A DNA stretch of 64,000 bases. Source: Paroceanicella profunda (lineage in GTDB: Bacteria; Pseudomonadota; Alphaproteobacteria; Rhodobacterales; Rhodobacteraceae). Under the pieces are notes generated by a model. The model was given only the letters and a program-made list of their open reading frames with translations, ran no database searches and was not told the DNA's origin. The stretch lies in NCBI RefSeq assembly GCF_005887635.2, contig NZ_CP040819.1, forward strand, positions 1 to 64,000, given 5' to 3'. A program made the position numbers and the translations under genes. Shown here in pieces: positions 4,630-51,165 of the stretch (position 1 is the first letter of the stretch; the number at the start of each line of letters is the position of its first letter).

Positions 4630-4748
4630 CCGTCTGCCGTCTGCCGTCTGCCGTCTGCCGTCTGCCGTCTGCCGTCTGCCGTCTGCCGTCTGCCGTCTGC
4701 CGTCTGCCGTCTGCCGTCTGCCGTCTGCCGTCTGCCGTCTGCCGTCTG
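4630..4748. repeat. Perfect heptanucleotide array, 17 copies of CCGTCTG
   Basis: The 7-mer CCGTCTG is repeated 17 times without a mismatch, 119 bases in all, between two convergent genes (3' ends at 4541 and 4758). It ends 9 bases before the stop of the binding-protein gene. Seven is not a multiple of three, so every frame cycles through the repeat; the ORFs it creates (QTADGRR-type) are artefacts. There are no spacers, so it is not a CRISPR. Confidence 0.97.
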
Positions 4749-4757
4749 CCGGGAGGA

Positions 4758-6308
4758 TCATTCCGTGCGCAGGTTGGCGCGCCAGCGTTCGGTGAACAGG
4801 GCCTTCTTCTGCCGGTCGGTGGCGGCGAGCAGGGCGGCGGAGAGCGGGATCAGCCGCAGGATGGAGGCGGCGCCGTCCGGCATGTCCAGATCCGCCTCCT
4901 CCGGGTCTCCGAAGCGCACGATCAGCCGGGAGCGGATGAGCGCGGCGCGCCCCGCGTCCGACAGCATGAAGTCCAGCAGGGCCGCCGCCGCGCGGCCATG
5001 CGGGGCCTGCCGCGGGATGAAGGCGGCGCGCGACAGCACCAGCGTATAGTCCTGCGGGGCGACCACCGCGAGGTCCGGGTTCTCCTCCGCGCGGGCCAGC
5101 GCGTAGGAGCCGAGGATGTTGTAGCCGATCAGCAGCCGCCCGGAGGCCACCGCGTCGGCGATCTCCAGCGAGCAGCAGGTGGCGATGGCCCCGGTGCGCC
5201 CGAAGGCCTCCAGCAGGCTGCCGAAGGTGGTGGCCTGCTGCGCATCGGCGAAGGCGAAGAGATAGCCCAGCCCGGAGGCCTCGATGTCATAGGTGCCCAC
5301 CCGCCCGGCGAAGCGGGTGTTCGCCGGGCGCAGGAGGTCGATGAGGTCGAATCGCGAGCGCGGCGCCTCCTCGGGGGAGACCAGCCGGCGGTTGTAGATG
5401 ATCACCGCCGGCTCACGCGTGACACCGAAGAGCTCGTTGCGCCAATTCTCCGCCAGCGGCAGGGCGGTGGTGGCCTCGGAGAGATGCGGTTGCGCGCAGC
5501 CGTCGTTCACCAGCTTCACCTGCTGGTCCACCGCCGAGCTGATGACGAGATCCGCCACCGGCGCCCGGCCGGCGCAGCCCGCCGCCGTCTCCGCCCCCAG
5601 CGGGTTCGAGCCCCATTGCTCATAGCGCACGCCCAGGTCGGCGCGGGTGGCGAGGAAGGCGCGCAGCAACGGCGCGAAGGCGCCGATGTCCGCCGCCCCG
5701 CGCACCACCAGCCAGCCCTCCGGCGGCGCCACGCCGAACTCGGCCACCGCCTCGGGCACCGAGGGCGTCGGCGCGCCCCGCCCGATCGGCCCGCGCGCCG
5801 CCTCCGGCACGGCGGCGTCCCGCGCCCCTCCGGCGTGCGGGCCATCAGGGGACGGGGCGGTGCCCCCCTCCCGTGCATCCTGCGGCGCTGCCGGACCCTG
5901 CTTGCCGCTTGGCGAGCCTTCCTCCCCTGCGTCTCGCGGCGCCACCGGGGCTTGCGTGCCGCGCGGGGCGGCGGCCTCACCCGCGCTTCGCGGCGCCGCC
6001 AAACCCTGCGTGCGGTTCGGCGAGCCCTCCTCCCGCGCGCCCTGCGGCGTTGCCGGGCCTTGCGTGCCGCTTGGCGAGCCTTCCTCCCCGGCGTCCCGCA
6101 GCGCCGCCGGGCCTTGCGCGGCGCGCGGCGCGGCGGCCTCACGCGCGCCGGTGGGGGGCGAGGCGCCCTGCCCTGCGGCGGGAGTGACGGGGGCCGCGAC
6201 GCCCCGGGCCGGCAAAGCCGTCTCCTGCGCGGGACCCGGGCGCGGCAGGGCCCAGAGCAGGGCGGCGAGGCCGAGCGAGCAGGCGCGGAGTGTCCGGCCG
6301 AAAGTCAT
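4758..6308 (-). CDS. Periplasmic solute-binding protein with an N-terminal repeat region
   Basis: 516-residue exported protein. Residues 1-28 are a signal peptide (ACSLGLAALLWALPRPGPAQ). Residues about 30-185 are Ala/Pro/Gly-rich with five 18-residue repeats. Residues about 190-516 are a type 2 periplasmic binding fold resembling ferric/anion ABC binding proteins (VVRGAADIGAF, SSAVDQQVKLVNDG, GREP-type TREPAVIIYNRRL, IGYNILGSYALAR). It is the third gene of tctD-tctE-this, about 110 bases after the kinase, with no ABC permease next to it. It may therefore act as a ligand sensor for the kinase rather than a transport component; that role is inference. The fold call is fairly sure, the ligand unknown. 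Confidence 0.75.
   Translation of the reverse strand: MTFGRTLRACSLGLAALLWALPRPGPAQETALPARGVAAPVTPAAGQGASPPTGAREAAAPRAAQGPAALRDAGEEGSPSGTQGPATPQGAREEGSPNRTQGLAAPRSAGEAAAPRGTQAPVAPRDAGEEGSPSGKQGPAAPQDAREGGTAPSPDGPHAGGARDAAVPEAARGPIGRGAPTPSVPEAVAEFGVAPPEGWLVVRGAADIGAFAPLLRAFLATRADLGVRYEQWGSNPLGAETAAGCAGRAPVADLVISSAVDQQVKLVNDGCAQPHLSEATTALPLAENWRNELFGVTREPAVIIYNRRLVSPEEAPRSRFDLIDLLRPANTRFAGRVGTYDIEASGLGYLFAFADAQQATTFGSLLEAFGRTGAIATCCSLEIADAVASGRLLIGYNILGSYALARAEENPDLAVVAPQDYTLVLSRAAFIPRQAPHGRAAAALLDFMLSDAGRAALIRSRLIVRFGDPEEADLDMPDGAASILRLIPLSAALLAATDRQKKALFTERWRANLRTE
5868..6140 (-). repeat. In-frame 54 bp minisatellite inside the binding-protein gene
   Basis: Residues about 57-147 of the encoded protein consist of five diverged units of about 18 residues, patterned E-(E/A)-(G/A)-(S/A)-P-x-x-x-Q-(G/A)-P-x-(A/T)-P-x-(D/S/G)-A-(G/R). 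Example units are EEGSPSGTQGPATPQGAR and EAAAPRGTQAPVAPRDAG. The repeat lies between the signal peptide and the folded domain, so it would form a flexible periplasmic spacer. Confidence 0.8.
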
Positions 6309-6415
6309 CCTGTTTCCCTTCGAAGGAGGCCAGGGGCCGCGCGCGCGCTCCCGTCGCGTGCCGCGGGGGCCACGGGCGCCGCCCGTTCCGGACACGCCGT
6401 CCGGACGGCGCGCGG

Positions 6416-7840
6416 TCATGCTCCGGCCTCCGGCGGGCCGGGCACGGCGGGCAGCACGAGCGCGGCTTCGAAACCGCCTTCGGCGCCCCGGGCGAAGGCC
6501 AGCCGGCCGGAATGCGCCCGCGCCACGGCATGCACGATGGCAAGGCCCAGGCCGGCGCCGTCCGGCGTGACACCGGCGGCGCGCGAGAAGCGGGCGCCGG
6601 CATCGCGCCAATGGTCCTCGGGCGGGCCGGCGCCACGATCTCGCACCCCGATGGTCGCGGTGCCGGGCGCCGCCGCGCTCACACGCAGGGTCACCGGCAG
6701 GATGCCGTGGCGGAAGGCGTTGTTCACCAGGTTCTTGCAGGCCTCGGTGAGCGAGAGCGCGTCGCCCTGCACCCAGACCGGGTCCTCCGGCAGATCGAGC
6801 GCGAGGTCCGCGCCGCTGGAGAACAGGTCGTGGTCGCTCTCCTCCGCGGTGCGGATCGCCACCGTGCGCAGGTCCGTGAGACCGGTGGGTTCCGCCTCCG
6901 CGCGGTGGATGATCAGCGCGTGGTTCAGGAGCTGGTTGGTGAGGCGCGAGAGGCCCACCGCCCGGTCGCGGATGCGCGCGACGACGGCGCGCATCTTCTC
7001 CGGGTCCTCCTCCTCGGCGGCAAGCTCGGCCAGCGCGCGCAGCGCCGCGACCGGGGTGCGCACCTGGTGGGAGGCATCCGCGATGAGGCTGCGCATGCCC
7101 CGCACCTGGTCGTCCAGCCGGGCCATGAAGCGGTTGATGGCGGTGACGATGATCGCGGTCTCGCGCGGCAGGTCCACCTTCAGCGGGGTGAGGTCGCGCG
7201 GGTCGCGCCGCGACAGGGCGTCCTCGATGCGGCGCAGCGGGCGCAGGGCGGAGCGGATGGCGAAGATGGCGAGGCCGACCATCAGCACCCCGGCCACCCC
7301 CAGCACCAGCAGCGCCTTGCTGGTGATGTCCCAGGCCAGCGCGTCGCGCGCGCGCATCGTGTGGCCGATGATCACGTCGATGGTGCCGGAGAAGGCGCGC
7401 TCGGCGAAGCGGCGGCGCACGGAGACGTAGCGCGCGCGCTCGCCGCGGAACTCGCCGTTGTAGAACACCGTGTCGGCCTCCGCCCGCGGCGGGCGGGCAA
7501 CCTCGTCGTAGCCGGTGAGGGTGGCGCCGTCCGGGCCCACCACCCGCCAGGCCACCCGGTCCTCCGGCGCCAGCGCCATCAGCTCGAAGGCCGGGACGGG
7601 GATGTCCACGATCACCGTGCCGTCCTGGATGCGGATCGCCGCGGCGATCTGGTTCGCCGCCCCGACCAGCAGCCGGTCGAAGGCCTCGTGCGCCGCATCC
7701 CGCCCGTAGGCCAGCGCGGCGAAGGTGACCATCACCCCGCCGCCCGACAGGATGAGCGCGATCGCCAGCGCGAGCCGGGTGCCGATGGAGGACACCCGGG
7801 GGCGCAGCGTCAGGGGGGCGGCCTCACGCATCCGCGACAA
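6416..7840 (-). CDS. tctE: Sensor histidine kinase, TctE-like
   Basis: 474-residue membrane kinase. Transmembrane segments at about 21-45 and 174-197 enclose a periplasmic sensor region of the TctE N-terminal type. A HAMP-like linker is followed by the H box DASHQVRTP with H258 as phosphoacceptor. The N box is NLVNNAFRHG, and the G boxes GVRDRGAGPP and DGAGLGLAIVHAVA complete the ATPase domain. Its start overlaps the end of tctD, so the pair is translated together. It probably senses tricarboxylates (citrate-like) and controls the divergent tctCBA genes through TctD. The ligand is inferred from context and family. Confidence 0.88.
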   Translation of the reverse strand: MSRMREAAPLTLRPRVSSIGTRLALAIALILSGGGVMVTFAALAYGRDAAHEAFDRLLVGAANQIAAAIRIQDGTVIVDIPVPAFELMALAPEDRVAWRVVGPDGATLTGYDEVARPPRAEADTVFYNGEFRGERARYVSVRRRFAERAFSGTIDVIIGHTMRARDALAWDITSKALLVLGVAGVLMVGLAIFAIRSALRPLRRIEDALSRRDPRDLTPLKVDLPRETAIIVTAINRFMARLDDQVRGMRSLIADASHQVRTPVAALRALAELAAEEEDPEKMRAVVARIRDRAVGLSRLTNQLLNHALIIHRAEAEPTGLTDLRTVAIRTAEESDHDLFSSGADLALDLPEDPVWVQGDALSLTEACKNLVNNAFRHGILPVTLRVSAAAPGTATIGVRDRGAGPPEDHWRDAGARFSRAAGVTPDGAGLGLAIVHAVARAHSGRLAFARGAEGGFEAALVLPAVPGPPEAGA

Positions 7841-8495
7841 GCTGGTATCCCAGCCCGCGCAGGGTGCGGATCGACACCCGGCTGCCCTCGATCTTGCGCC
7901 GCACCCGGGCGACGTAGATCTCGATGGCGGTGAGGCCCACCTCCTCCTCGTCGAAGGGGAACATGCGCTCGAAGATGCGCTCCTTCGACATCACCCGGCC
8001 GCGGTTCGCGATCAGCACCTCGAACAGGCTCAGCTCGCGGCGGGTGAGCGCCACGGGCCGGCCGGCCGCGGTGAGGGTGCGGCCCGCGGGGTCGAAGGCG
8101 AGGTCGCCGAAGGTGATCTCGCCGCCGCGGTCCGGGGTGGCGCGGCGGGCCAGCGCGCGCACCCGCGCCTCCAGCTCGCGCAGGTCGAACGGCTTCACGA
8201 GGTAGTCGTCCGCGCCGATGTCGAGGGCGGCGATGCGGTCCTCCACCTCGAAGCGGGCGGTGAGCATGAGCACCGGTGTCGCGTCGCGCCGGCCGCGCAT
8301 GTCGCGCAGCAGCTCGGTGCCGGAGCCGTCGGGGAGGTTTATGTCCAGGATCGCGACATCGTAATCCTGCACGGCCAGCGCGTCGCGGGCCTGCGCGAGG
8401 GTGCCGGCATGGTCCACGGCGGCACCGCGCCGCGCGAGGCTGGCAACGATGGCCTCGGCGACGTCCCTTGTATCCTCGAGAAGCAATACGCGCAT
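7824..8495 (-). CDS. tctD: OmpR-family response regulator, TctD-like
   Basis: 223-residue regulator with a receiver domain (residues 1-115; acidic pocket LLLEDTRD, phosphoacceptor D51 in ILDINLPDG, switch lysine in YLVKPFD). A winged-helix DNA-binding domain follows (about 128-222; LTRRELSLFEVL, IEIYVARVRRKI, IRTLRGLGYQL). The ATG at 8495 has a GGAGGAG ribosome site and starts exactly at the receiver fold, unlike longer frames. It is first in the tctD-tctE-binding protein unit and divergent from tctC across 284 bases, where it presumably binds. Confidence 0.92.
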   Translation of the reverse strand: MRVLLLEDTRDVAEAIVASLARRGAAVDHAGTLAQARDALAVQDYDVAILDINLPDGSGTELLRDMRGRRDATPVLMLTARFEVEDRIAALDIGADDYLVKPFDLRELEARVRALARRATPDRGGEITFGDLAFDPAGRTLTAAGRPVALTRRELSLFEVLIANRGRVMSKERIFERMFPFDEEEVGLTAIEIYVARVRRKIEGSRVSIRTLRGLGYQLVADA

Positions 8496-8779
8496 CTGGC
8501 TCCTCCGCGCCTCATGGGCGGCCTGGCGGGCGGTGACCATAGACCAGAGCTGACGGCAGGTGAAGCTGAACACATTCCGTTCTGAAAGGTTGGCGAAAGC
8601 TTTGCGCGATACCCGCTCTGGTCCCGGCTCCGCGCTGTGATGTCGCGGGGCCCGCGGCCCGGGCGGCCGGGGGGACTTCCCCGCACCGCGCCCGAAGCCG
8701 CCCCCCGCGAAGCGCAGACCGCGCTTCGGCCTGCGCCTGCGCCTACGCCTGCAAACGAGAAAACAAACGGAGGATCCCG

Positions 8780-9769
8780 ATGTTTACTTCGCCTTTCCTG
8801 CGCCGCAGCCTTGCCGCGTTCGCCGTGCTGTGTTCCGCCACGGCCCCTTCCCTCGCCTTCGAGCCGTCCAATGCCGAGTGCATCGCCCCCGCGAACCCGG
8901 GCGGCGGCTGGGACTTCACCTGCCGCCAGGTCGGCAAGGCCATGCAGGACCTCGGCCTCGTGCCCGGCACGGTTCAGGTGACCAACATTTCCGGCGGCGG
9001 CGGCGGCGTGGCCTATTCCGCGGTGGTGACCAAGCGCAACGATGATTCCGACCTGATCGTCGCCGCCTCCTCGGCCACCTCCACCCGCCTCGCCCAGGGC
9101 GCCTACCCGGGCAACACCATGGACCAGGTCCGCTGGCTCGCCTCCGTGGGCGCGGATTACGGCATCATCGCCGTGGCCAAGGACAGCAAGATCACCACGC
9201 TTCCCGAGCTGATGGACATGATCAAGGCCGACCCGCGCTCGGTGGCCGTGTCCGGCGGCTCCGCCGTGGGCGGCTGGGACCACCTGAAGGTGCTGATGGC
9301 CGCGCGCGCCGCCGGCATCCAGGATGTCCGCTCCATCAAGTACGTGGCCTTCAACGGCGGCGGCGAGGCGGTGACCCAGCTTCTGGCCGGCTCCGTGCAG
9401 GCCTTCACCGGCGACGCCTCGGAGGCCAAGGGCTTCGTGGATTCCGGTGACATCAAGGTGATCGCGGTGCTGGCGCCGGAGCGGCTGGAGGGCGACTTCG
9501 CCTCCTTCCCGACGGCGAAGGAGCAGGGGATCGACGTTGTCGGCGCCAACTGGCGCGGCTTCTACGCCCCGGGCGGCATGTCCGACGAGGCCTACGACTA
9601 CTGGGTCGACGCGATCGGCAAGGTCTACGATTCCGAGGAGTGGAAGCAGACCATGGCCAACAGCGGCCTCGCCCCGCTCGACCTGCGCGGCAAGGCGTTC
9701 GAGGAGTTCGTGGCCGAGTCCGTGTCCTCGATCTCCGACATCTCCCGCGAAATCGGCCTGATCAAGTGA
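8780..9769 (+). CDS. tctC: Tripartite tricarboxylate transporter substrate-binding protein
   Basis: 329-residue periplasmic binding protein of the TctC/Bug family. A signal peptide covers residues 1-26 (ending PSLAF). The mature protein shows the family fold and motifs: IAPANPGGGWDFTCRQV, VTNISGGGGGVAY, then VASVG-like LASVGADYGIIAV and FNGGGEAVTQLLAGSVQAFTG. It captures citrate-like carboxylates and hands them to TctAB. A GGAGGA ribosome site precedes the ATG. A large hairpin separates it from tctB, probably letting this subunit be made in excess. Regulation by the divergent TctDE pair is expected. Confidence 0.95.
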   Translation: MFTSPFLRRSLAAFAVLCSATAPSLAFEPSNAECIAPANPGGGWDFTCRQVGKAMQDLGLVPGTVQVTNISGGGGGVAYSAVVTKRNDDSDLIVAASSATSTRLAQGAYPGNTMDQVRWLASVGADYGIIAVAKDSKITTLPELMDMIKADPRSVAVSGGSAVGGWDHLKVLMAARAAGIQDVRSIKYVAFNGGGEAVTQLLAGSVQAFTGDASEAKGFVDSGDIKVIAVLAPERLEGDFASFPTAKEQGIDVVGANWRGFYAPGGMSDEAYDYWVDAIGKVYDSEEWKQTMANSGLAPLDLRGKAFEEFVAESVSSISDISREIGLIK

Positions 9770-9774
9770 TCGGC

Positions 9775-9835
9775 CGGCGGCGGGCGCGCCCCTCCCCTGC
9801 CGAAGCGGCGGGAGCAGGCGGGGCGCCCGCCGCCG
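9775..9835 (+). terminator. Strong hairpin between tctC and tctB
   Basis: Arms CGGCGGCGGGCG...CCCC (9775-9792) and GGGGCGCCCGCCGCCG (9820-9835) pair over about 16 bases with a 27-base loop. There is no T-run. Within an operon such a hairpin more likely acts as an attenuator or 3' stabiliser of the tctC message than as a full terminator. Confidence 0.6.
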
Positions 9836-9865
9836 CTTCGCGGACAGATCCACGGGAGACCCATC

Positions 9866-10297
9866 ATGAGTGAACGCATCTTCGGCGGCATCGGCCTCGC
9901 GCTCGCCGTCTTCTTCGTCTGGCAGGCCCGGCTCATCGAACTGAGCTTCATCTCCGATCCGGTGGGACCGCGGACCTTCCCCATCATCATCGGCGTGCTG
10001 CTGGGCCTCTCCAGCCTCGTCATCCTGCTCAAGCCCGACGTGGGGCCGCAGTGGCCCAGCCTGGCGCGGCTGTTCGAGATCGCCATGTCCGTGGCGGTGA
10101 TGGTCGCCTATGCCGTGCTGCTGCCGGAACTGGGCTTTCTCATCGCCACCGCGCTGGCCTCCGCCTTCCTCACCTGGCGGCTGGGCACCGCGCCGCTCTG
10201 GTCGCTGGTCGTGGGGGTGAGCACCTCGGTGGGCATCTACGTGATCTTCCATCTCATCCTCGGGCTGTCGCTGGCCCGCGGCCCGCTCGGCTTCTGA
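9866..10297 (+). CDS. tctB: Tripartite tricarboxylate transporter small membrane subunit
   Basis: 143-residue inner-membrane protein with about four hydrophobic segments (IGLALAVFFVWQARL, FPIIIGVLLGLSSLVIL, ISVAVMVAYAVLLPELG-type, and VGIYVIFHLILGLSLA). It carries the FISDPVGPRTFP motif typical of TctB after the first helix. Length is normal for the family. It works with TctA to form the sodium/proton-coupled permease fed by TctC. It lies between tctC and tctA, 12 bases before tctA. Confidence 0.92.
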   Translation: MSERIFGGIGLALAVFFVWQARLIELSFISDPVGPRTFPIIIGVLLGLSSLVILLKPDVGPQWPSLARLFEIAMSVAVMVAYAVLLPELGFLIATALASAFLTWRLGTAPLWSLVVGVSTSVGIYVIFHLILGLSLARGPLGF

Positions 10298-10309
10298 GGA
10301 GAGACCGTC

Positions 10310-42229: not shown

Positions 42230-42558
42230 CCCGGTCCCCCTGAAGACGCTCCGCGCCCCGGGGCCGGAACCCCCGCCTCATCCGGGCGGGCCCCCCGCTT
42301 CGCCCGCGCACGCCGCCCCGGTGGGGGTGCGGGCACCGTGCGCGCGGGCTGCACTTCGCGCCATCCCGCCCCGGCGACGGGCCCTGTGCGGCAGGGGGCG
42401 GCGTCCGGACCAGCCACGGGTACGGCCCGGGGCGCCGCGCCGTCGCGAAGCTGCCCCGTCGCGAGGGGACACCGCCCCCGGTGCCCGAGATTGACCGGCC
42501 GGCCGGCCCTCCCGTAGGCTCGGGATCTCCACTCACCCGTCCCGGGGGGCCCCGCGCG

Positions 42559-43551
42559 ATGTCCGACCTCATGACCCTTCCCGGCGCGATCGACGCCCGC
42601 GTGCTGGCCGGCCTCGCACGGGAGTTCCGCGCCGCCGGGCTGGACATGGCGGCGCTGCGCGCCCGCGCCGGCGTGGACCGGCTGGAGGCGCCGGAGGCGG
42701 GCGGCGCGCATGACCTCGACACGTTCGTGCGGCTGCTGGAGGCGGCCGGGGATGCGGGCGACCGTCCGGGCTTCCTGTGGCACTGCGGCCGGGCCTTCGC
42801 CCGCAATTCCGCCGCCGGGCTGTTCCCGATGCTGCACGCCGGTCTGCGGCTGGGCACCGCGCTGGGGGCCGTGGTCGGCGAGATCGGGCGGCTCCAGTCC
42901 GGCGCCGTGGTGCGGCTGAGCCACGAGGCCGGGCTCGCGACCATCGAGTATCGCGTGCTCGATCCCGCGATCTGGCCCCGGGCGCGCGACGTGGAATTCA
43001 CCTTCGGATTTCTGGACGGGCTGGTGCGCTCGGCCGGGCCCGTGGTGCCCGAGGCGGTGGTGTTCGAGCATGACCCCCACGGGCGCCTGGGCCGCATCGA
43101 CCGGGTGGCCGGGCTGCCCTGCGTCTATGGCGGCGGCAGCAACTACCTCGCCTATCCCGACGCCGCGATGGAGCTCAGCCTGCGCCCCGGCGCCCTGGCC
43201 CGGGGCGGGCCCGGCGGCGTGGCCAGCCCGCCGCGCGAGGCGGCATTCGCCGGCACCCTGCGCGCGGCCCTGCTGGAGGCGCTGGGACGCGCGCCGGTGA
43301 GCCAGGCCGCCGTGGCCGCCGGGCTGGGCCTCTCGGACCGCAGCCTGCGCCGTCGGCTGGAGGCGGAGGGGCTGAGCTTCCGCACCGAGCTCGACCGCGC
43401 CCGCAGCGCCGTGGCGCGCGAGTACCTGCGCCGGGGGGAGATGCCGCTGAGCGAGATCGCCCAGAGGCTCGGATACCGCCACCTCTCGGATTTCTCCCGC
43501 GCGTTCCGCCGTGTGGAGGGCATCGCGCCCAGCCGGTTGCGGAAGCGTTGA
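42559..43551 (+). CDS. AraC-family transcriptional regulator
   Basis: 330 residues. The N-terminal ~200 form an arabinose-binding-domain-like region of the OruR/AdpA-less type (LAREFRAAGLDMAALRARAGV, then LRLGTALGAVVGEIGRLQ). The C-terminal AraC double helix-turn-helix spans about 230-328: LLEALGRAPVSQAAVAAGLGLSDRSLRRRLEAEGLSFRTELDRARSAVAREYL and LSEIAQRLGYRHLSDFSRAFRRVEGIAPSRLR. The start at 42559 follows GGGGGG. It stands alone; the upstream amine oxidase or downstream thi genes are possible but unproven targets. Confidence 0.88.
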   Translation: MSDLMTLPGAIDARVLAGLAREFRAAGLDMAALRARAGVDRLEAPEAGGAHDLDTFVRLLEAAGDAGDRPGFLWHCGRAFARNSAAGLFPMLHAGLRLGTALGAVVGEIGRLQSGAVVRLSHEAGLATIEYRVLDPAIWPRARDVEFTFGFLDGLVRSAGPVVPEAVVFEHDPHGRLGRIDRVAGLPCVYGGGSNYLAYPDAAMELSLRPGALARGGPGGVASPPREAAFAGTLRAALLEALGRAPVSQAAVAAGLGLSDRSLRRRLEAEGLSFRTELDRARSAVAREYLRRGEMPLSEIAQRLGYRHLSDFSRAFRRVEGIAPSRLRKR

Positions 43552-43577
43552 CACGAAGCGCCGGGCGTGGTGCCTGC

Positions 43578-43640
43578 GGCTCCCGGCTCCCGGCTCCCGG
43601 CTCCCGGCTCCCGGCTCCCGGCTCCCGGCTCCCGGCTCCC
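43578..43640. repeat. Perfect heptanucleotide array, 9 copies of GGCTCCC
   Basis: GGCTCCC is repeated nine times without error over 63 bases, starting 27 bases after the AraC stop. It lies between the convergent ends of the AraC gene (43551) and thiX (43715). No spacers are present. Frames across it code for SRLPAPG-type repeats and are artefacts. Confidence 0.97.
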
Positions 43641-43714
43641 GGCGCTGCGCGTCAGCGGCTCGGGGCGAGGGCACGCGGGCGCGGCGGGCGGGAGGCCCCC
43701 GGACGTAGCGGCTG

Positions 43715-44506
43715 TCAGTCCAGCCGCCTGCACAAGAGCCCCACGGCAAGCCGCGTCGCGAGGGTGAGCACCACCAGCACGAAGAGGGCCGCGAACATCA
43801 GGTCGATCCGCGCCCGCCCGTTGGCCAGCAGCATCAGGTAGCCCAGCCCGCGCGAGGCGCCGACCCATTCGCCGATCACCGCCCCGATGGGCGCATAGAC
43901 CGCCGCCAGCCGCAGGCCGGAGGCGAGGGAAGGCAGGGCGGCGGGAATGCGCAGGTGCCACATCACCCGCCCGGGCCGCGCCCGCATGGTGCGGGCAAGG
44001 TCCAGCCAGCCCGGATCCGTGCGCAGCAGCCCGTCGAGAAACGCCGAAGCGACGGGGAAATAGACGATCAGAACCGCCATCGCCACCTTCGGCAGCATCC
44101 CGTAGCCGAACCACAGCGTGAGCAGGGGCGCCAGCGCGAAGACCGGCACCGCCTGGCTCAGCACCAGCAGCGGCATCGCCAGCACCCGCGCCCGGCGCGA
44201 GAAGGCCAGCCCCACCGCCGTGGCCGCGCCCAGGCCCGCGCCCAGCACGAGCCCGGCCAGCACCTCCCACAGCGTGGCCAGCCCGTGCCCCGCGATCAGC
44301 CTTGCATTGCCGGCGAGCGCCCGCACCACCGCCAGCGGCCCCGGCAGGATGAAGGCCGGCGGCGCCGCCACCCAGACCACCCCCTGCCAGAGCGCGAGGA
44401 TCGCCAGCCCGGCGACACAGGCCGGCGCCACCCGCCGGACGAGAGCCGGCGCGGCGCCGGGCGTGTGCGGGTGCGCGGGCACCAGCGGCTCCGCCGGCGC
44501 GCTCAT
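43715..44506 (-). CDS. thiX: ABC transporter permease of the thiamine-pyrimidine uptake system
   Basis: 263-residue permease with six helices and the EAA-type loop TMRARPGRVMWHLRIPAALPSLASGLRLAAVYAPIGAVIGEW. WVAAPPAFILPGPLAVVRAL and LGLGAAT-type AGLVLGAGLGAATAVGLAFS fit the SsuC/ThiX group. It is the last gene of the riboswitch-controlled thi operon and overlaps thiZ by four bases. With ThiY and ThiZ it probably imports a thiamine pyrimidine precursor (such as formylaminopyrimidine) that TenA can process; the substrate is inferred from context. Confidence 0.87.
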   Translation of the reverse strand: MSAPAEPLVPAHPHTPGAAPALVRRVAPACVAGLAILALWQGVVWVAAPPAFILPGPLAVVRALAGNARLIAGHGLATLWEVLAGLVLGAGLGAATAVGLAFSRRARVLAMPLLVLSQAVPVFALAPLLTLWFGYGMLPKVAMAVLIVYFPVASAFLDGLLRTDPGWLDLARTMRARPGRVMWHLRIPAALPSLASGLRLAAVYAPIGAVIGEWVGASRGLGYLMLLANGRARIDLMFAALFVLVVLTLATRLAVGLLCRRLD

Positions 44507-45246
44507 GCCGGTGCGCCGGCGGAGCCGCTGGTGCCGAGCAGGGCGCGGAACAGGCTGCCCTGGGCGGTGAGGGTGTCCGGCGCGTCCGGTGCCCGGGGCG
44601 GCGGGGCGTCGGGCAGCGGCATCTCGGTGAGGGCACCGTCCCCGAGCATCAGCAGCCGGTGGGCGAGGCGCAGGGCCTCGCCGGGCTCATGGGTCACCAG
44701 CAGCACCGTGCGCCCGGCGAGCAGTCGCGCCGCGAGGTCCTGCATCCCGGCGCGGGTGCGGGCGTCGAGCGCGGAGAAGGGCTCGTCGAGCAGCACCACC
44801 GGGCAGTCCTCCATCAGCGTGCGCGCCAGCGCCACCCGCTGGCGCTGCCCGCCGGAAAGCGCGCCGGGCCGGGCGTCCTCGCGCCCCTCGAGCCCGACGG
44901 CGGAAATGAGCGCCCGGGCCCGCGCCATGTCCGGCCGCGTGCCTCTCAGCCGGGGCCCGAGGGCGACGTTGCCCAGCACGTCCAGCCAGGGGCAGAGCAG
45001 GTCCGTCTGGGCCATGTAGGCGATGCGCCCCTGCGGCCCCGCGCCATCGCTGAAGGAGACACCGCCCTCCAGCCGCACCGCGGTGTCGAGCCCGGCGATG
45101 AGCCGCAGCAGGGAGGATTTTCCCGCGCCGGAGGGGCCGAGCAGGCAGGTCCAGCGCCCGGCCGGCAGCGCGAGGGTGAGCGGGCCGAACAGCGTCTGCC
45201 CGCCCAGCAGGCCGCGGCCCGACAGGGTGATGCCCGGCGCGGTCAT
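44503..45246 (-). CDS. thiZ: ABC transporter ATPase of the thiamine-pyrimidine uptake system
   Basis: 247 residues, a short SsuB/ThiZ-type ATPase. Walker A is GPSGAGKSS, the Q loop MAQTDLLCPWLDV, the signature LSGGQRQRVALARTL, Walker B VVLLDEPFSALD and the H loop VTHEPGEALRLAH. The serine in place of the final Walker A threonine is a common variant. It overlaps thiX and tenA by four bases each. It energises the ThiX permease. Confidence 0.9.
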   Translation of the reverse strand: MTAPGITLSGRGLLGGQTLFGPLTLALPAGRWTCLLGPSGAGKSSLLRLIAGLDTAVRLEGGVSFSDGAGPQGRIAYMAQTDLLCPWLDVLGNVALGPRLRGTRPDMARARALISAVGLEGREDARPGALSGGQRQRVALARTLMEDCPVVLLDEPFSALDARTRAGMQDLAARLLAGRTVLLVTHEPGEALRLAHRLLMLGDGALTEMPLPDAPPPRAPDAPDTLTAQGSLFRALLGTSGSAGAPA

Positions 45247-45938
45247 GCCGGCCCGCCGCGCAGGCCCATGTCCCAGAACGCGGCCTCCAGCCGTGTGGCG
45301 GTCGAAAAGCGCGCGGTGAGGGCCTGCCAGCGCGGCAGCTCCTGCGCTCCCGGCCCGAGGCGCCGGGCGATGGCGGCATCGGTGAGGGCGCCCACCGCGC
45401 GGCAGGTCTGCTGGTAATCGGCGCCTGAATAGGTGTCGATCCAGCCGCGGTAGGGGGCATCGGGTGGTGCCATGGCCGCCAGCCGCGCGCCGATCTCGCC
45501 GTATCCCAGCACGCAGGGCGCGAGGGTGGCCAGCAGGTCCAGCAGGTCGCCGGACCAGCCGGCCTCCAGCACGTAGCGGGTGTAGGCGAGGGTTTCCGGC
45601 GCCTCGGGCGTCGCGATCAGCGTGGCCTCGTCAATGCCCTCGGCGGCGCAGGTCTCCACGTGCAGGGCGGTCTCGCCATTGGCCAGCGCGTCGAGGGTGC
45701 GCGCGGCGAGGCGCATCTCGTCGAGATGCTCCGCCTTCGCCGCCGCCAGCGCCCAGGCCCGGGCGAAGTGGAACAGGAACACGTAGTCCTGCCGCAGGTA
45801 GTGCAGGAAGGCCGGCCGGGGCAGGCTGCCGTCGCCCAGCCCGGTGACGAAGCGGTGGCCGGTGTAGGCCGCCCAGTCCGGGCCAGCGGCGGCGCGCCAG
45901 GCACGAAAGGCGGTGCCGTAGTCGGGGTGCGGGCTCAT
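45243..45938 (-). CDS. tenA: TenA-family aminopyrimidine aminohydrolase
   Basis: 231-residue all-helical TenA protein. Recognisable parts are FVTGLGDGSLPRPAFLHYLRQDYVFLFHFARAWALAAAKAE, VLGYGEIGARL and the C-terminal YRGWIDTYSGADYQQTCRAVGAL with the catalytic cysteine region. TenA hydrolyses degraded or salvaged thiamine pyrimidines to hydroxymethylpyrimidine. It sits between the putative pyrimidine binding protein and the ABC subunits, overlapping both by four bases, which makes salvage rather than protease regulation the likely role. Confidence 0.92.
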   Translation of the reverse strand: MSPHPDYGTAFRAWRAAAGPDWAAYTGHRFVTGLGDGSLPRPAFLHYLRQDYVFLFHFARAWALAAAKAEHLDEMRLAARTLDALANGETALHVETCAAEGIDEATLIATPEAPETLAYTRYVLEAGWSGDLLDLLATLAPCVLGYGEIGARLAAMAPPDAPYRGWIDTYSGADYQQTCRAVGALTDAAIARRLGPGAQELPRWQALTARFSTATRLEAAFWDMGLRGGPA

Positions 45939-46885
45939 TGCGCGGGTTCCCCGACCGCGCCGGTGTCGACCGCGAGGCGGGAGACCGGCAGGGTGCCGTC
46001 GATCAGCCCGGCCCCGGCCATGAACGCCTCGAAACGGGCATAGCGCCCGGCGTCCAGCGCGGCGGGGCGCAGGGCCAGCCGCGGCACGGTGTCGGCCCAG
46101 GCGCGGGCGTTGAGCGCGTCGTCCAGCTCCGGCGCGGTGGCGGCGAAGATGCGGAAGCTCTCCTGCGAGTGGTTCACGATGAACTGCACCGCCTTCTCGG
46201 TGGCGGCAAGGAAGCGCGAGATCACCGCCGCGTCCATCCGCTCCGGGTTGGCGACGTAGATCAGCTCGTCATAGGCCGGCACGCCCGCCTCCTCCGGGTA
46301 GAAGCAGCGGCCGGGCACGTTCTCCAGCGCCATCTGATTCAGCTCGAAATTGCGGAAGGCGCCGATCACCGCGTCCACCTGCCCCGACATCAGCGCGGGC
46401 GAGAGCGACCAGTTCACGTTCACCATCTCCACGTCATCGGCCGTGAGCCCGCCGGAGCCCAGCATGGCGGTGAGCAGCGCGCTCTCCACCCCGGAGACGG
46501 AGAAGCCCACGCGGCGGCCCTTCAGGTCGGCGATGCTGCCGATCGGCCCGTCCGCCTTCACCAGCAGGCAGTTGAGCGGCGTGGCCACCAGCGTGCCCAC
46601 CCGGATGAGCGGCAGGCCCTCATGCACCTGCAGGTGCAGCTGCGGCTGGTAGGAGACCGCGATATCGGCCCGGCCGGCGGCCACCATCTTCGGCGGGTCC
46701 GAGGGGTCGGCCGGGGCGATGGTCTCCACCTCCAGGCCCTCGTCGGCGAAATAGCCCTTCTCCTGGGCGATGACGATGGGCCCGTGGTCGGGGTTCACGA
46801 ACCAGTCCAGCATCACCGTGAGGTGGTCCGCCGCGGCGGCGGGGCCGGCGGCGAGCAGGGCAAGGGCGAGGGCGAGCGGTTTCAT
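45935..46885 (-). CDS. thiY: NMT1/ThiY-like pyrimidine-precursor binding protein
   Basis: 316-residue periplasmic binding protein with a signal peptide at 1-19 (ALALALLAAGPAAAA). NMT1/THI5-like features are VMLDWFVNPDHGPIVIAQEKGYFADEGLEVETIAP, ADIAVSYQPQLHLQV, LKGRRVGFSVSGVESALLTAML and GRCFYPEEAGVPAYDELIYVA. A GGAGAAA site precedes the ATG. Gene order thiF-thiY-tenA-thiZ-thiX and the riboswitch upstream argue for uptake of a thiamine pyrimidine such as formylaminopyrimidine. Confidence 0.9.
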   Translation of the reverse strand: MKPLALALALLAAGPAAAADHLTVMLDWFVNPDHGPIVIAQEKGYFADEGLEVETIAPADPSDPPKMVAAGRADIAVSYQPQLHLQVHEGLPLIRVGTLVATPLNCLLVKADGPIGSIADLKGRRVGFSVSGVESALLTAMLGSGGLTADDVEMVNVNWSLSPALMSGQVDAVIGAFRNFELNQMALENVPGRCFYPEEAGVPAYDELIYVANPERMDAAVISRFLAATEKAVQFIVNHSQESFRIFAATAPELDDALNARAWADTVPRLALRPAALDAGRYARFEAFMAGAGLIDGTLPVSRLAVDTGAVGEPAQ

Positions 46886-46904
46886 GGGGCGTTTCTCCGG
46901 TGTG

Positions 46905-48107
46905 TCAGGTCTTGTCGCCCCGGGGGGCGAAGGGGGATGCGGAAGCGGCCTCGGGGCCGCCTGCGGGGGCTGGCGATGCGGGGCCCGGCCCGGCTGGGGC
47001 GCGCGCGCTGAACGTGTCCTGCCCGGCGCTCTCGCCGGGGGGGCGCCGGCCCGCGCCTTCACCGGGGGTGCCCTGAGCCGCGCGCCCGTCTTGGGCTCCC
47101 GGACCGGCGGCCTCACCGAGGGGTGCTTGCCCCGCGCCTTCGCCGAGGGCGACGAGGGCGATCTCGCCCTCCCAGCGCGCGGCGAGGCGGTTCGCCGCCT
47201 GCCAGGAGCGCAGGCCGGAGCGGCAGCAGAGCACCGCGCGCTGGCCCGGCCCGGGCAGCGGGCCGCCGGGGCCGAGATCGGGCACGCCGAGGCGCAGCGC
47301 GTCGGGGGTGGCGGGCAGGGGGGCTTCCTCCGCCCCGCGCAGGTCGACCACGAAATCGCCGGGGGCGATGGCGGCGGGGGCGATGAAGCGGGGCGCGCGC
47401 GCGGGCTCCGGCGCGCCGTCGAAGCGGAAGCCGCCGAAGCGCAGGGCGCCGCCATCCCAGCTCACCAGCCGGCCAAGGGGGGAGGGGCTGAGGCCCAGCA
47501 CATGGCTGAGCGCGAGCTGGGCGAGGAGCGAGCCCACCACCCCCACCGCCGGCCCCAGCACGCCGGCCGTGGCGCAGGAGGCCATGCGCTCCGGCAGGTC
47601 GGGAAAGACCGCGCGCAGCGAGGGCGCGCCGGCGCAGAAGCCGCCCGCGTAGCCCGAGAGCCCGAGCACCGAGCCGCTGATGAGCGGCAGGCCGCGCGCG
47701 AGGCAGGCGTCGGAGGCGGTGTAGCTGGCCGCGAAACTGTCCGCGCAGTCGATCACGAGGTCGACACCGTTGAGCGCCGCCTCCACCGTGCCGGGGTCGA
47801 TGCTGCCGACCACGGGGGTGACCAGGCAGTCGGGGTTCAGCGCCGCGCAGACTTCCGCCGCGGCCTCGGCCTTGAAGCGGCCGCGATGGGCGGCGGAGAA
47901 GATCACCTGGCGGTGCAGGTTGCCGGTCTCCACCCGGTCGGGATCCCAGAGGGTGATGCGGCCGAGGCCGGCGCCGGCGAGGTAGTGCAGCACCGGCGCG
48001 CCGAGGCCGCCGGCGCCGATCACCAGCGCATGGGCGGCGCGGATGCGGGCCTGGCCGGCTTCCCCCACCTCCGGCAGGATCTGCTGGCGGGCGTAGCGGG
48101 CAGTCAT
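46905..48107 (-). CDS. thiF: ThiF-like adenylyltransferase fused to a rhodanese domain
   Basis: 400 residues in three parts. Residues 1-245 are a ThiF/MoeB/HesA E1-like domain (YARQQILPEVGEAGQARI, VIGAGGLGAPVLHYLAGAG, WDPDRVETGNLHRQVIF, VIDCADSF). Residues about 255-320 are a compact rhodanese domain with the persulfide loop LCCRSGLRS (C295). Residues about 320-400 are a Gly/Ala/Pro-rich tail ending ASPFAPRGDKT. It adenylates ThiS, and the rhodanese part probably supplies sulfur, replacing a separate sulfurtransferase. It overlaps thiE by ATGA. One CxxC-type zinc site seen in MoeB relatives is not obvious. Confidence 0.88.
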   Translation of the reverse strand: MTARYARQQILPEVGEAGQARIRAAHALVIGAGGLGAPVLHYLAGAGLGRITLWDPDRVETGNLHRQVIFSAAHRGRFKAEAAAEVCAALNPDCLVTPVVGSIDPGTVEAALNGVDLVIDCADSFAASYTASDACLARGLPLISGSVLGLSGYAGGFCAGAPSLRAVFPDLPERMASCATAGVLGPAVGVVGSLLAQLALSHVLGLSPSPLGRLVSWDGGALRFGGFRFDGAPEPARAPRFIAPAAIAPGDFVVDLRGAEEAPLPATPDALRLGVPDLGPGGPLPGPGQRAVLCCRSGLRSWQAANRLAARWEGEIALVALGEGAGQAPLGEAAGPGAQDGRAAQGTPGEGAGRRPPGESAGQDTFSARAPAGPGPASPAPAGGPEAASASPFAPRGDKT

Positions 48108-48703
48108 CGCGTGGCCTCCACCCAGGCGGCGAGCCGCGCCTCGGGGTCGGCGTTCAGCGTGATGTCGGTGACGACGGAGACGATGTCCGCCCCGGCGGCG
48201 AAGGCGCCCGGCGCGCGCTCCACGCTCATGCCGCCGATGGCGACGAGGGGGGTGGCGCCCACGCGGGCCTTCCACTCGGTGAGGCGCGCGAGCCCCTGTT
48301 GCTCCCAGCGCATCTTCTTCAGGATGGTGGGGTAGACCGGGCCGAGGGCCACGTAATCCGGGGCGAGGGACAGGGCGCGCTCCAGCTCCGCCTCGTCATG
48401 GGTGGAGAGGCCGAGACGCAGGCCGGCGCGGCGGATGGCGGGCACGTCGGCCACGTCGAGGTCCTCCTGTCCGAGGTGGACGAAATCGCAACACTCCTCG
48501 ATGGCGATCTGCCAGTGGTCGTTCACCACCAGCACGGCTCCGGCGGCGGCACACAGGTCGCGCGCGGCGCGGATCTCGGCGCGCAGGGCCTCGGGGGCCA
48601 TGTCCTTCACGCGCAGCTGCACGAGGCGCATGCCCAGGGGCAGCATGCGGGCGATCCAGGCGGCGCTGTCGAAGATCGGGTAGAACCGGTCGAGCGTGCT
48701 CAT
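48104..48703 (-). CDS. thiE: Thiamine phosphate synthase
   Basis: 199-residue TIM-barrel enzyme joining hydroxymethylpyrimidine pyrophosphate to thiazole phosphate. Typical segments are [61 protein letters not shown] and [11 protein letters not shown] followed by [11 protein letters not shown]. It lacks long extensions. It overlaps thiG and thiF by four bases each. The usual first-strand Tyr/Thr region is present though divergent ([10 protein letters not shown]), as in the alphaproteobacterial branch. Confidence 0.93.
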
Positions 48704-49479
48704 GCGAGGAAGGCCCTCCCGATCAGCGGGGTGGAGGGGGCGGCCATGTCGCGCGGCTCCATCGGGTCGGCGGCGAAGGCGGCACGCCCGGCCTCGACGG
48801 CGAGCGCCATGGCCCGGGCCATCGCGGCCGGGTCTCCCGCCTTCGCCACGGCGGTGTTCAGCAGCACCGCGTCATAGCCCATCTCCATCGCCTGTGCGGC
48901 GTGGGAGGGCAGGCCGATGCCGGCGTCGACCACCATCGGCACCTCGGGGAACTGCGCGCGCAGGGCCCGCAGGCCCGGCAGGTTCGTGAGCCCCAGGCCC
49001 GAGCCGATGGGCGCGCCCCAGGGCATCAGCACCTCGCAGCCGGCGGCGAGCAGGCGCTCGGCCACCACCAGGTCCTCCGTGGTGTAGGGGAACACGCGGA
49101 AGCCTTCGGCGGTGAGGATCTCCGCCGCCTCCACCAGCGCGAAGACATCGGGCTGCAGCGTGTCGGTATGGCCGATCACCTCGAGCTTCACCCAGGGCGT
49201 GCCGAACATCTCGCGGGCCATGTGGGCGGTGGTGACCGCCTCCTTCACCGTGTGGCAGCCGGCGGTGTTGGGCAGGATGCGGGTGCCCATGCCCTCCACC
49301 AGCGCCCAGAAATCCTGGCCGGCGAGCCCGCCCGGCCCCCCCGCCTCGCGGCGCAGCGACACGGTGGCCACCCCGGCGCCGCTGGCGCGGAAGGCCTCGG
49401 CCATGATGGCGGGGGAGGGGTATTGCGCGGTGCCCAGCATCAGCCGGCATTCCAGCGTCTCTCCGTAGAAGCTGCGCAT
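48700..49479 (-). CDS. thiG: Thiazole synthase
   Basis: 259-residue (beta/alpha)8 enzyme that builds the thiazole phosphate from deoxyxylulose phosphate, dehydroglycine and ThiS thiocarboxylate. Seen: [41 protein letters not shown], the Schiff-base lysine region [15 protein letters not shown] (K98) and [15 protein letters not shown] followed by [32 protein letters not shown]. It sits 2 bases after thiS and overlaps thiE. The dehydroglycine source should be ThiO, since thiH is absent. Confidence 0.96.
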
Positions 49480-49481
49480 GT

Positions 49482-49679
49482 TCAGCCTCCCTGCATCGGG
49501 GCCAGGACCTCCAGCGCGCAGCCGGGGGCGAGGCGCGTGTCGGGGCGGGCGGGGGCGGGCACGAAGGCGCCGTCGAGTGCTGTGGCCACACGGGCGTCGG
49601 CGTAGCCGAGCTCGGTGAGGGCCTCGTCGAGGCGGCTGGCGCGGATCTCGCGCGGCTCACCGTTCAGAAAGATCTTCAT
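49482..49679 (-). CDS. thiS: Sulfur carrier protein ThiS
   Basis: 65-residue ubiquitin-like protein. It begins [12 protein letters not shown], has [10 protein letters not shown] in the helix, and ends MQGG, the Gly-Gly tail that ThiF adenylates and that becomes a thiocarboxylate. Its start lies inside the end of thiO (23-base overlap), and 2 bases separate it from thiG. Confidence 0.95.
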
Positions 49680-50646
49680 CCATCATCTCCGGTCGGGTGG
49701 TGTGGAACAGGTGGTCGGCGGCCATGCGCGCCATGGCGGGCGACAGCAGGAAGCCGTGCCGGTAGAGGCCGTTCACGTAGAGCGTGGCGCCCCGGCGGCG
49801 CAGGCGCGGCAGGTTGTCGGGAAAGGCGGGGCGGGCGTCGACGCCGATTTCCAGGATCTCCGCCTCGCCGAAGGCGGGGTGGAGGGCGTAGGCCGCGCTG
49901 AGCAGCTCCAGCATGGAGCGCGCGGTGATGCGCCCGCGCTCCGAGCTTTCGATCGAGGTGGCGCCGAGCATGTAGACCCCGTCCCCCCGCGGCACGATGT
50001 AGAGCGGGATGCGCGGGTGCAGCAGCCGCACCGGGCGCGAGAGGCTCACGTCCGGGCAGCGCAGCACCAGCATCTCGCCCTTCACGCCGCGCAGGTCCGG
50101 CAGGGCGTCGCGTGCGGCGAGGCCGCGGCAGTCGATCACCGGGCCGGGGCCCGGGTCCTCCCCCTGGCCGATCCGCACGCCCGCGGCCTCCAGCCGGGCG
50201 CGCAGCGCGTCGAGGGCGGCGCGCGGGGCGAGGTGTCCCTCCCCGGCGAAGAACAGCCCGCGCCGGAAGCGTCCGGCGAGGTCGGGCTCCAGCGCCGCGA
50301 CGCCGGGGGCGTCCAGCGCCGCGTGCCTGGTGCTGCGGCGGGCGAACCGGTCCAGCTCGCCGCCGTCGCGCCCGAGGGCGAGCACCAGAGTGCCGGCCCG
50401 GGTCACACCGCCGGCGTGGCTGTCCCACCAGTCGAGCGCCTCCCGGCCGAGGCGCAGCACCGGCTCCTCCGCGCTCTCCGCCTCGCACCAGGGCGCGAGC
50501 ATGCCGCCGGCCCACCACGAGCAGCCGTGCGGGCCGGGCGGGCCGGTGCGGTCCAGAAGGGTGACGGCGCCGCCCCGGCGGGTGATCTCGCTGGCCACGG
50601 TGAGCCCGGCCACCCCGGCCCCCAGGATGGTGACCTCGACGCTCAT
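49657..50646 (-). CDS. thiO: Glycine oxidase ThiO
   Basis: 329-residue FAD-dependent D-amino acid oxidase-type enzyme that converts glycine to the iminoacetate used by ThiG. The dinucleotide motif is VTILGAGVAGLTVASEITRRGGAVTLLDR, followed by CSWWAGGMLAPWCEAESAEEPV, a ThiO signature, and the C-terminal VNGLYRHGFLLSPAMARMAADHL. The ATG at 50646 is used; frames starting farther upstream run into the leader and riboswitch. First gene of the thi operon, oxygen-dependent route in place of ThiH. Confidence 0.93.
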   Translation of the reverse strand: MSVEVTILGAGVAGLTVASEITRRGGAVTLLDRTGPPGPHGCSWWAGGMLAPWCEAESAEEPVLRLGREALDWWDSHAGGVTRAGTLVLALGRDGGELDRFARRSTRHAALDAPGVAALEPDLAGRFRRGLFFAGEGHLAPRAALDALRARLEAAGVRIGQGEDPGPGPVIDCRGLAARDALPDLRGVKGEMLVLRCPDVSLSRPVRLLHPRIPLYIVPRGDGVYMLGATSIESSERGRITARSMLELLSAAYALHPAFGEAEILEIGVDARPAFPDNLPRLRRRGATLYVNGLYRHGFLLSPAMARMAADHLFHTTRPEMMDEDLSER

Positions 50647-50860
50647 CGCGCGCGGGCCTGCGGGCCGGCGCGCAGCGGGCGGGCACATGTCATCTCCCGC
50701 CAGCCCGAAGTGCGCTGACAGCCCGCGAGGCCGGCATGCGGCCCGGGAAGGCATGAGTGCGGAAAACCTGTCATCGCCGTCTCTCCTTTGCGCGGTCCGG
50801 GCCGGCAAGGGAGGCGGTGACGCGGGGCTCTCCCCCTCGGGGGGCGCCTCGCTCAAAACC
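50647..50860 (-). other. thi operon leader between riboswitch and thiO
   Basis: About 210 bases separate the riboswitch from thiO. Read on the minus strand, just after the aptamer lies CCCCC-CGA-GGGGG within a Gly/Pro-rich segment, a candidate expression-platform hairpin. No conserved gene is recognised in this leader. Confidence 0.5.
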
Positions 50861-50960
50861 CGTTCCCTACGCCGGCATTGCCCGGATCAGGTTCGATGGG
50901 TTGATGCGCGGCTCGCATCTCTCAGCCCGGCTACGGGCACCCCAACGGATGAAGGGAACG
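50861..50960 (-). promoter_or_regulatory. TPP (THI-box) riboswitch
   Basis: On the minus strand the aptamer shows the full THI-box core: closing helix P1 CGTTCCCT (50953-50960) with AGGGAACG (50861-50868), GGGGTGCC, GGGCTGAGAGATG, ACCCATCGAACCTGATCCGGG and AATGCCGGCGTAGGGA. These are the conserved pyrimidine- and pyrophosphate-binding segments. It lies upstream of thiO and so controls the whole nine-gene thi operon by thiamine pyrophosphate. Confidence 0.97.
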
Positions 50961-50986
50961 ATAGTCACCTTCCCCCGCGCTTGCAA
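50957..50986 (-). promoter_or_regulatory. Putative thi operon promoter
   Basis: Reading leftwards, TTGCAA (50981-50986) and a GACTAT/CTATCG -10 region around 50959-50966 at about 14-16 base spacing directly precede the riboswitch P1 helix. Confidence 0.45.
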
Positions 50987-51046
50987 CAGGGCAGGGGAAG
51001 ATGTGATGGACGTGCTTGACAGGCCGGCCGGACCCGGATGGCTTTC

Positions 51047-51165
51047 GAAGCCCGAAGCCCGAAGCCCGAAGCCCGAAGCCCGAAGCCCGAAGCCCGAAGC
51101 CCGAAGCCCGAAGCCCGAAGCCCGAAGCCCGAAGCCCGAAGCCCGAAGCCCGAAGCCCGAAGCCC
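51047..51165. repeat. Perfect heptanucleotide array, 17 copies of GAAGCCC
   Basis: GAAGCCC is repeated 17 times without mismatch over 119 bases, between the thi operon promoter and the 3' end of the VOC gene (51312). The copy number and length equal those of the CCGTCTG array at 4630-4748, although the unit differs. The SPKPEAR-type ORFs it creates are artefacts. No spacers. Confidence 0.97.

Follow-up and report, generated by a model that had tools for sequence, protein, structure and literature searches.

Long simple sequence repeats (SSRs) of bacteria, with units of 5–11 nt, have been described as rich in heptanucleotides and intergenic by preference, with slippage as the proposed cause and with units of multiples of three tolerated in genes (PMC4679880, PMC4692102). 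In an earlier survey, heptanucleotides are the commonest 5–11 nt category in most genomes, and the ten richest genomes include four Burkholderia, two cyanobacteria, three Actinobacteria, and a Xanthomonas (PMC4679880). Some 6–9 bp repeats have also been reported as enriched in prokaryotic phyla (PMC12699852). A 2007 study is cited for the bacterial heptamer excess and for an explanation based on polymerase contact (PMC4692102); the explanation of seven-base units, as given there, is a guess about the DNA stretch held by the polymerase. Here we describe three perfect heptanucleotide arrays in the first 64,000 nt of contig NZ_CP040819.1 (the window), which is the start of plasmid pD4M1A of the alphaproteobacterium Paroceanicella profunda D4M1. 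They belong to a real and genome-wide case of this known phenomenon, apparently enriched in the lineage and represented by 19 heptamer arrays in a sample of the genome.

The D4M1 arrays share the traits of the long SSRs, the units being far above chance, heptamers the commonest, and the arrays intergenic with hexamers in genes. The D4M1 lineage is not among the examples named in the papers cited, and a bias to convergent spacers and a unit-size threshold have been measured in D4M1. The original prediction, made from the letters of the window, had called a period of 7 unusual in proteobacteria. The place of Burkholderia and Xanthomonas among the ten heptanucleotide-richest genomes of the survey argues otherwise (PMC4679880).

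The GGGNATC and GGGGA(C/T)T repeats of Xanthomonas and Nostoc resemble the D4M1 arrays in having a period of 7, in being mostly non-coding, and in being scarce between divergent genes (PMC4692102). They carry one common G-quadruplex motif, tend to have four copies, and are found mainly between aligned open reading frames (ORFs), whereas in D4M1 all 19 sampled units differ, copies run from 4 to 50, and convergent spacers dominate. A preference for four units is not seen in D4M1, where 2 of the 19 arrays have 4.x copies and the range extends to 50.1. As regards selection for G-quadruplexes, units with a run of three G or C make up 11 of the 19, against a background of 38% (p=0.069). A link to cyanobacterial repeats had also been suggested, yet none of the 19 units equals GGGNATC or GGGGA(C/T)T (PMC4692102). 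The hosts of the short tandemly repeated repetitive (STRR) sequences are heterocystous cyanobacteria, whereas D4M1 is alphaproteobacterial, the comparison of units covering the Nostoc motif only. The TAACTGA repeats of marine Beggiatoaceae and cyanobacteria are likewise intergenic heptanucleotide direct repeats (PMC4679880). They lie upstream of start codons, whereas 12 of the 19 D4M1 arrays lie between converging gene ends, and TAACTGA is absent among the 19 units. The variable number tandem repeats (VNTRs) used for typing Xanthomonas citri, with repeats of 7 bp or less, are also short-unit arrays expected to change in number; variability has been demonstrated there (PMC4045669) and is expected in D4M1. 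The D4M1 arrays would be ready strain-typing markers for a deep-sea bacterium.

The D4M1 genome (5,468,583 bp) is present as seven contigs, C1 to C7 (4,039,866, 586,520, 288,677, 189,758, 137,471, 114,056, and 112,235 bp), and window coordinates are those of contig C2. Array 1 (CCGTCTG, 17.4 copies, 4630–4751) and array 2 (CGGCTCC, AGCCGGG class, 9.6 copies, 43577–43643) lie between converging genes, while array 3 (CGAAGCC, AAGCCCG class, 17.1 copies, 51046–51165) occupies a codirectional spacer. These spans and copy numbers count partial end copies. Tandem Repeats Finder (TRF), the raw sequence, and the gene calls bear out the description of the three arrays as present, error-free, and intergenic, and none of them overlaps a gene called by codon usage. 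Three exact copies of the array 3 unit occur nowhere else in the genome, and three of the array 1 unit elsewhere only in the contig end overlap described below.

The class was counted in a sample of 1,646,386 bp in 27 merged pieces, or 30% of the genome (C2 in full, 560 kb of C1, and portions of C3–C7), an array being defined as perfect and of 4 or more copies. Distinct arrays number 0 at period 5, 9 at period 6, 19 at period 7, 5 at period 8, 1 at period 9, and 0 at periods 10–12. The raw count at period 7 is 20, one being an overlap copy, and one spacer contains two of the 19 side by side. For each sample piece, a single order-3 Markov copy was made as a control, and none of these copies contained an array of period 6–9 with 4 or more copies; the arrays are therefore far beyond chance. 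The genome-wide period-7 class that had been supposed is thus real, with 19 distinct arrays in 1.65 Mb against 0 in the Markov control. Heptamer arrays were also met outside the sample at C1:2092122-2092240 (17.0 copies) and C1:420734-420843 (15.7 copies of the array 2 unit). The differences between all sampled units are what independent expansions would give. Clustering of arrays along the replicons is not significant under two nulls (p 0.17–0.35 and 0.36–0.52).

The matching 119-bp length of two window arrays, exactly 17 copies each, had been taken as a signal. This is not supported, as heptamer copy numbers in the sample range from 4.3 to 50.1, and the shared 17 copies look like a coincidence. 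Under a log-uniform model, the probability of a tie in copy number among three draws is about 0.10. A further array of 17.0 copies lies outside the sample, and in simulated sets of 20 arrays, 21% of draws have an integer of at least 10 that occurs three times.

We consider it probable that these are young simple-sequence arrays formed by replication slippage and tolerated where no promoter is hit, with no dedicated system behind them. A short tandem duplication of 6–9 nt, most often 7, would arise in a spacer, and slippage of the DNA polymerase would then add or remove whole units. With slippage fast relative to point mutation, arrays would stay perfect while drifting in length and unit. Expansion would be blocked for 5-nt units and efficient from about 7 nt, with mismatch repair as the candidate size filter, removing small loops and not loops of about 6–7 nt. 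Loops that MutS-dependent repair can handle measure at most about three or four bases, and larger loops escape it. Since each base added to the unit reduces the number of chance seeds about threefold, a threshold for expansion would make the product of the two gradients peak at 7. Converging genes would be the main place where arrays persist, since an array between them damages neither a promoter nor a reading frame. The recent expansion or ongoing slippage put forward in the original prediction fits the data: of the 19 period-7 TRF rows, 17 have a match of 100% and the remaining two of 99% and 96% (with the overlap copy included and the abutting pair as one row), and perfect arrays stand beside diverged flanks. 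No older, degraded heptamer array above the TRF score limit was found in the D4M1 sample.

The choice of seven has been approached by comparing seeds, defined as perfect runs of 2–3.99 copies in array-masked spacers, with expanded arrays, for which the lower limits were 4 copies and 20 bp (five copies at period 4). Relative to an order-2 simulation, seeds are in excess 1.62, 1.65, 1.63, and 1.73-fold at periods 5, 6, 7, and 8. This similar excess indicates that seeds have no preference for 7. The expanded fraction, on the other hand, is 1/1,320 at period 4, 0/718 at period 5, 5/210 at period 6, 19/88 at period 7, 5/27 at period 8, 1/6 at period 9, and 0/7 at periods 10–12. Periods 6 and 7 differ (p=2e-7), while period 7 does not differ from 8 and 9 combined (p=0.80, small numbers). 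Six spacer runs of period 5 reach 3 copies and none reaches 4; no heptamer run lies between 3 and 4. The pattern reads as a loop-size threshold near 6–7 and not as a polymerase contact of seven, the explanation of a 2007 survey of long simple sequence repeats that is said to be by Mrazek et al. An active process that builds 7-mers, another part of the original prediction, is not favoured by this threshold-like pattern or by the occurrence of periods 6, 8, and 9. D4M1 suggests a simpler and testable account in which seeds become rarer with length and only units of about 6–7 bases or more expand, the two meeting at seven.

Expansion driven by hairpins was considered and rejected, since the trend is opposite. 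The structure of period-7 units is weaker than that of letter-permuted units (p 0.000, 4000 draws), of seeds (p=0.0003), and of a GC-matched background (p=0.046), and does not differ from that of an unmatched background (p=0.41).

The location of the arrays was determined with a purpose-written codon-usage gene caller, which gave 1,438 genes and 83% coding in the sample. Among 38 distinct arrays of period 4–60, 24 are convergent, 9 codirectional, 1 divergent, and 4 inside called genes. All four in-gene arrays have hexamer units, and the gene around one of these is a weak call of 41 codons. Two abutting hexamer blocks, ACGGAC then CGGAGG, lie in a called ORF at C5:29277-29402 and form a possible in-frame variable region. 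Arrays occur in 23 of 170 convergent spacers, 8 of 637 codirectional spacers, and 1 of 190 divergent spacers (Fisher test, p=1e-10 against codirectional and 3e-7 against divergent). Array-free spacers have a median length of 239 bp when convergent and 244.5 bp when divergent. Seeds of periods 6–9 amount to 1.36 per kb in convergent, 1.17 in codirectional, and 0.95 in divergent spacers. As seeds are nearly even between the classes, the convergent bias arises at expansion or retention. Among the matches listed in a literature search of titles and abstracts, no report of a convergent-spacer bias of bacterial tandem repeats was seen, which is a weak negative; some Microcystis repeats have been described as lying between stop codons (PMC4679880).

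The strong convergent excess despite near-even chance seeds would also be expected if convergent transcription drove expansion, with opposing RNA polymerases or read-through opening the DNA and promoting slippage, so that the bias would be mutational and not selective. We regard this as unlikely. Six of the nine codirectional arrays are closer to a gene 3' end than to the next start, and array 3 avoids a putative promoter shared with a relative; both observations count against the transcriptional explanation, and both fit tolerance too. Tolerance is probably the cause of the location bias. The convergent-gene bias is also a cheap way of telling tolerance from function.

A functional role would be expected if the arrays were switches, or contingency loci, in which a change in copy number alters the expression of flanking genes. 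In favour of this, the arrays are perfect and probably unstable, and array 3 lies upstream of a putative promoter of a riboswitch operon. Its spacer begins at the stop codon of a minus-strand glyoxalase-family gene (51312–52103, Pfam PF00903) and leads to a thiamine operon in the same direction. This operon is preceded by a putative sigma-70-type promoter (TTGCAA-N17-TATCGT, 50958–50986, minus strand) and, downstream of it, a thiamine pyrophosphate (TPP) riboswitch (50847–50954, minus strand, Rfam RF00059, 80.6 bits). The relative SM1341 has a counterpart, TTGCAA-N17-TAACCT; a stricter promoter scanner did not report the D4M1 promoter (50986–50958). Array 3 begins 59 bp upstream of the -35 box and leaves the putative promoter intact. 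Starting clear of this shared element, it illustrates tolerance.

The other two arrays are likewise placed outside reading frames. Array 1 is flanked by a flavin reductase-like gene (3879–4541, plus strand, PF01613) and lies 6 bp beyond the stop of its minus-strand neighbour, a gene for an extracellular solute-binding protein (called limits 4758–5810, with PF13343 and PF13531 on the longer ORF 4758–6611). Array 2 lies between an AraC-family regulator gene (called limits 42559–43551, plus strand, with PF12833 and PF12625 on the ORF 42481–43551) and an ABC transporter permease gene (43715–44506, minus strand, PF00528). None of the window arrays is in a reading frame or within promoter spacing, the positions typical of contingency loci, and the window neighbours (transport, reductase, glyoxalase, and regulator genes) include no evident surface-antigen set. 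Across the sample, none of the 19 heptamer arrays falls within a called gene, and 12 of them are bounded by converging stops. Based on these observations, a role as switches is very improbable.

The age of the arrays can be judged from flanks that they have in common. The arrays at C2:522614 and C2:578049 consist of 28.4 and 28.9 perfect copies, and their units are the same but for 1 base in 7. They share a left flank of 61 bp at 88.5%, right up to the array, while a right-flank match is not detectable. Array 2 and C1:420734 have an identical unit and, on one side only, a common abutting flank of 23 bp that matches at 91% and throughout its last 16 bases; a 14-base word of this flank occurs nowhere else in the sample. 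At C1:3018608, the unit switches in a block within one spacer, from AGCCAAG (22.7 copies) to the AGCCAGG class (5.7 copies). Perfect arrays beside diverged flanks mean that the arrays are younger than the flanks or are homogenised faster than the flanks diverge.

Sharing of one flank to the exact array edge in both pairs raises the question of whether an array and a short flank are duplicated together into other sites, with homogenisation afterwards, as a small bacterial satellite-like system. The restricted 14-base flank word points the same way, as do 10-mers common to two or more flank sets (521 against a background of 381, sd 61). On the other hand, 10-mers common to three or more sets show no such excess (68 against a background of 58.7, sd 18.7), and the two-set excess includes arrays sharing a spacer. 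A repeated seed, expanded independently, would explain the one-sided flank sharing without any movement of arrays, and copying followed by homogenisation is accordingly judged highly unlikely. We also find it unlikely, as a reading of the whole class, that array and one-sided short flank are copied to other spacers in a satellite-DNA system and that each array is swept whole to a new unit. If true, it would apply to the paralogous pair C2:522614/C2:578049 and to the orthologous pair of C1:2092122 and the SM1341 array described below, each pair having one or two fixed differences per unit and internally perfect arrays. Separately, a flank motif common to all arrays was sought and not seen at three or more loci.

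The comparison with relatives used one genome per species, the relative within the genus being Oceanicella sp. SM1341 (G001). At the three sites syntenic to the window arrays, SM1341 has no array, and the flanking aligned blocks are about 47, 15, and 8 bp apart. One heptamer array, CCGCTCA with 11.4 copies (80 bp), was found in 480 kb of SM1341 scanned in 24 stretches, and the syntenic D4M1 spacer holds ACTGGTC with 17.0 copies (C1:2092122-2092240). The match between the two units, at 5 of the 7 positions, has a chance level of 0.18 on one strand and 0.30 on either; the similarity at this orthologous site is therefore suggestive only. SM1341 has 1 heptamer array in 480 kb and D4M1 has 19 in 1.64 Mb, a difference in density at p=0.04 that is not seen for short arrays alone (p=0.36); a short-read draft can lose long arrays. 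Contig ends of SM1341 were considered as places of hidden arrays, and none of nine ends examined carries a heptamer array.

More widely, arrays with a period of at least 6 and at least 4 copies were absent from 20 stretches (392.5 kb) of 11 other family genomes and from 79 named loci, mostly of Rhodobacterales (1.49 Mb). The size of the contrast is uncertain because many of these genomes are short-read drafts and the 79 loci represent one gene neighbourhood. The scan for period-7 arrays proposed with the original prediction gave many arrays in the D4M1 sample, one in the 480 kb of SM1341, and none in the stretches of 11 family genomes and the 79 loci. Loss of repair genes was rejected as a cause: mutS, polA, and recJ are full length in D4M1 and SM1341 and mutL is full length in D4M1, other repair genes not having been searched. 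A MutL match over the family cut-off was obtained in 59 of 61 genomes, with only weak matches in the family genomes G031 and G052 (E 7e-4 and 1e-4); G052 is rated 100% complete in 7 contigs.

Several points weigh against slippage with tolerance as outlined above. Slippage should act in other Paracoccaceae too, yet no arrays were found in the 392.5 kb of 11 family genomes or the 1.49 Mb of 79 loci. The plateau beyond period 7 rests on few cases, and none of the seven seeds of period 10–12 has expanded. Seeds have a higher GC content than array units (6.04 versus 5.25 of 7 bases) and are more prone to hairpins (p=0.0003). Array units are thus unlike a random draw of present-day seeds, which makes the seed-supply half of the account weaker than the threshold half, and arrays may begin from fresh duplications rather than from chance seeds. 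The two array pairs with a flank common on one side only are not predicted by plain in-place slippage. In addition, one genome per species gives one copy number per array. Three parts of the analysis are worth keeping: the seed-versus-expansion comparison, the bias to convergent spacers, and the finding that paralogous flanks have diverged while the arrays next to them are perfect.

The assembly also bears on the copy numbers. Paraoceanicella profunda D4M1, a piezophile from the Mariana Trench, has been sequenced by PacBio RS and Illumina, and the record was made with Velvet at k=17 and PacBioToCA (PMC7002103). The chromosome is given there as 4,417,125 bp in the text and 4,039,866 bp in Table 1; the contig analysed here agrees with Table 1. 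C2:1-6755 matches C2:579773-586520 at 99.69% identity with 0 mismatches and 21 gap bases, so that the C2 start duplicates its own end as an untrimmed circular overlap that includes array 1. As a result of this 6.75-kb overlap, the stated 586,520 bp of pD4M1A is too large and the genes there are doubled. The second occurrence of array 1, at C2:584407-584528, again has 17.4 copies and lies within a 4,106-base gap-free stretch of the overlap. Its count is thus supported by both consensus ends, which may share reads. A second independent CCGTCTG locus was rejected, this being the redundant end of circular contig C2. Read correction can smooth repeats and contig ends were left untrimmed, and copy numbers or perfection could in principle be artefacts of the PacBio plus Illumina assembly. 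Against this stand the 17.4 copies at both ends, the 80-bp heptamer array in the draft of the sister SM1341, and the variation of units and lengths between arrays that nevertheless prefer one gene orientation. We find an artefact barely credible. Assembly collapse at 119 bp was likewise rejected, as arrays up to 351 bp exist.

Dispersed intergenic repeats occur in 6 of 32 array-bearing spacers and 21 of 839 others (p=0.0003). Within convergent spacers the figures are 4 of 23 with arrays against 9 of 134 (p=0.10), and for repeats with three or more partners 3 of 23 against 2 of 134 (p=0.02). A modest link between arrays and dispersed repeats may therefore exist. One element of ~165 bp has complementary stretches GCCGCGCCCGACCCT ... 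AGGGTCGGGCGCGGC, with copies at L040:1085-1250 (C2:505085-505250), L244:5905-6072, and C1:18115-18279. It gave 29 matches in D4M1 and 45 in SM1341 (40 candidates scored each) and was matched in 21 of 41 family genomes including D4M1, many of the matches being partial. A 901-base stretch with one copy had no match above the Rfam gathering score. A second repeat of ~90–115 bp sometimes adjoins the 165-bp element and has copies at L245 about 891–982, C1:18349-18445, C1:1202307-1202396, C2:469410-469507, and C2:200379-200452. A third, of ~90–140 bp, is found at C2:273493-273630, at C2:504808-504946, and in the left flank of C1:2002403. In the D4M1 sample, each of its three copies has a heptamer array no more than about 312 bp away; an SM1341 copy (L219) is without an array. 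The window also contains imperfect tandem repeats of longer unit, of ~97 bp at 3253–3506 and of ~80–100 bp at 54483–54786.

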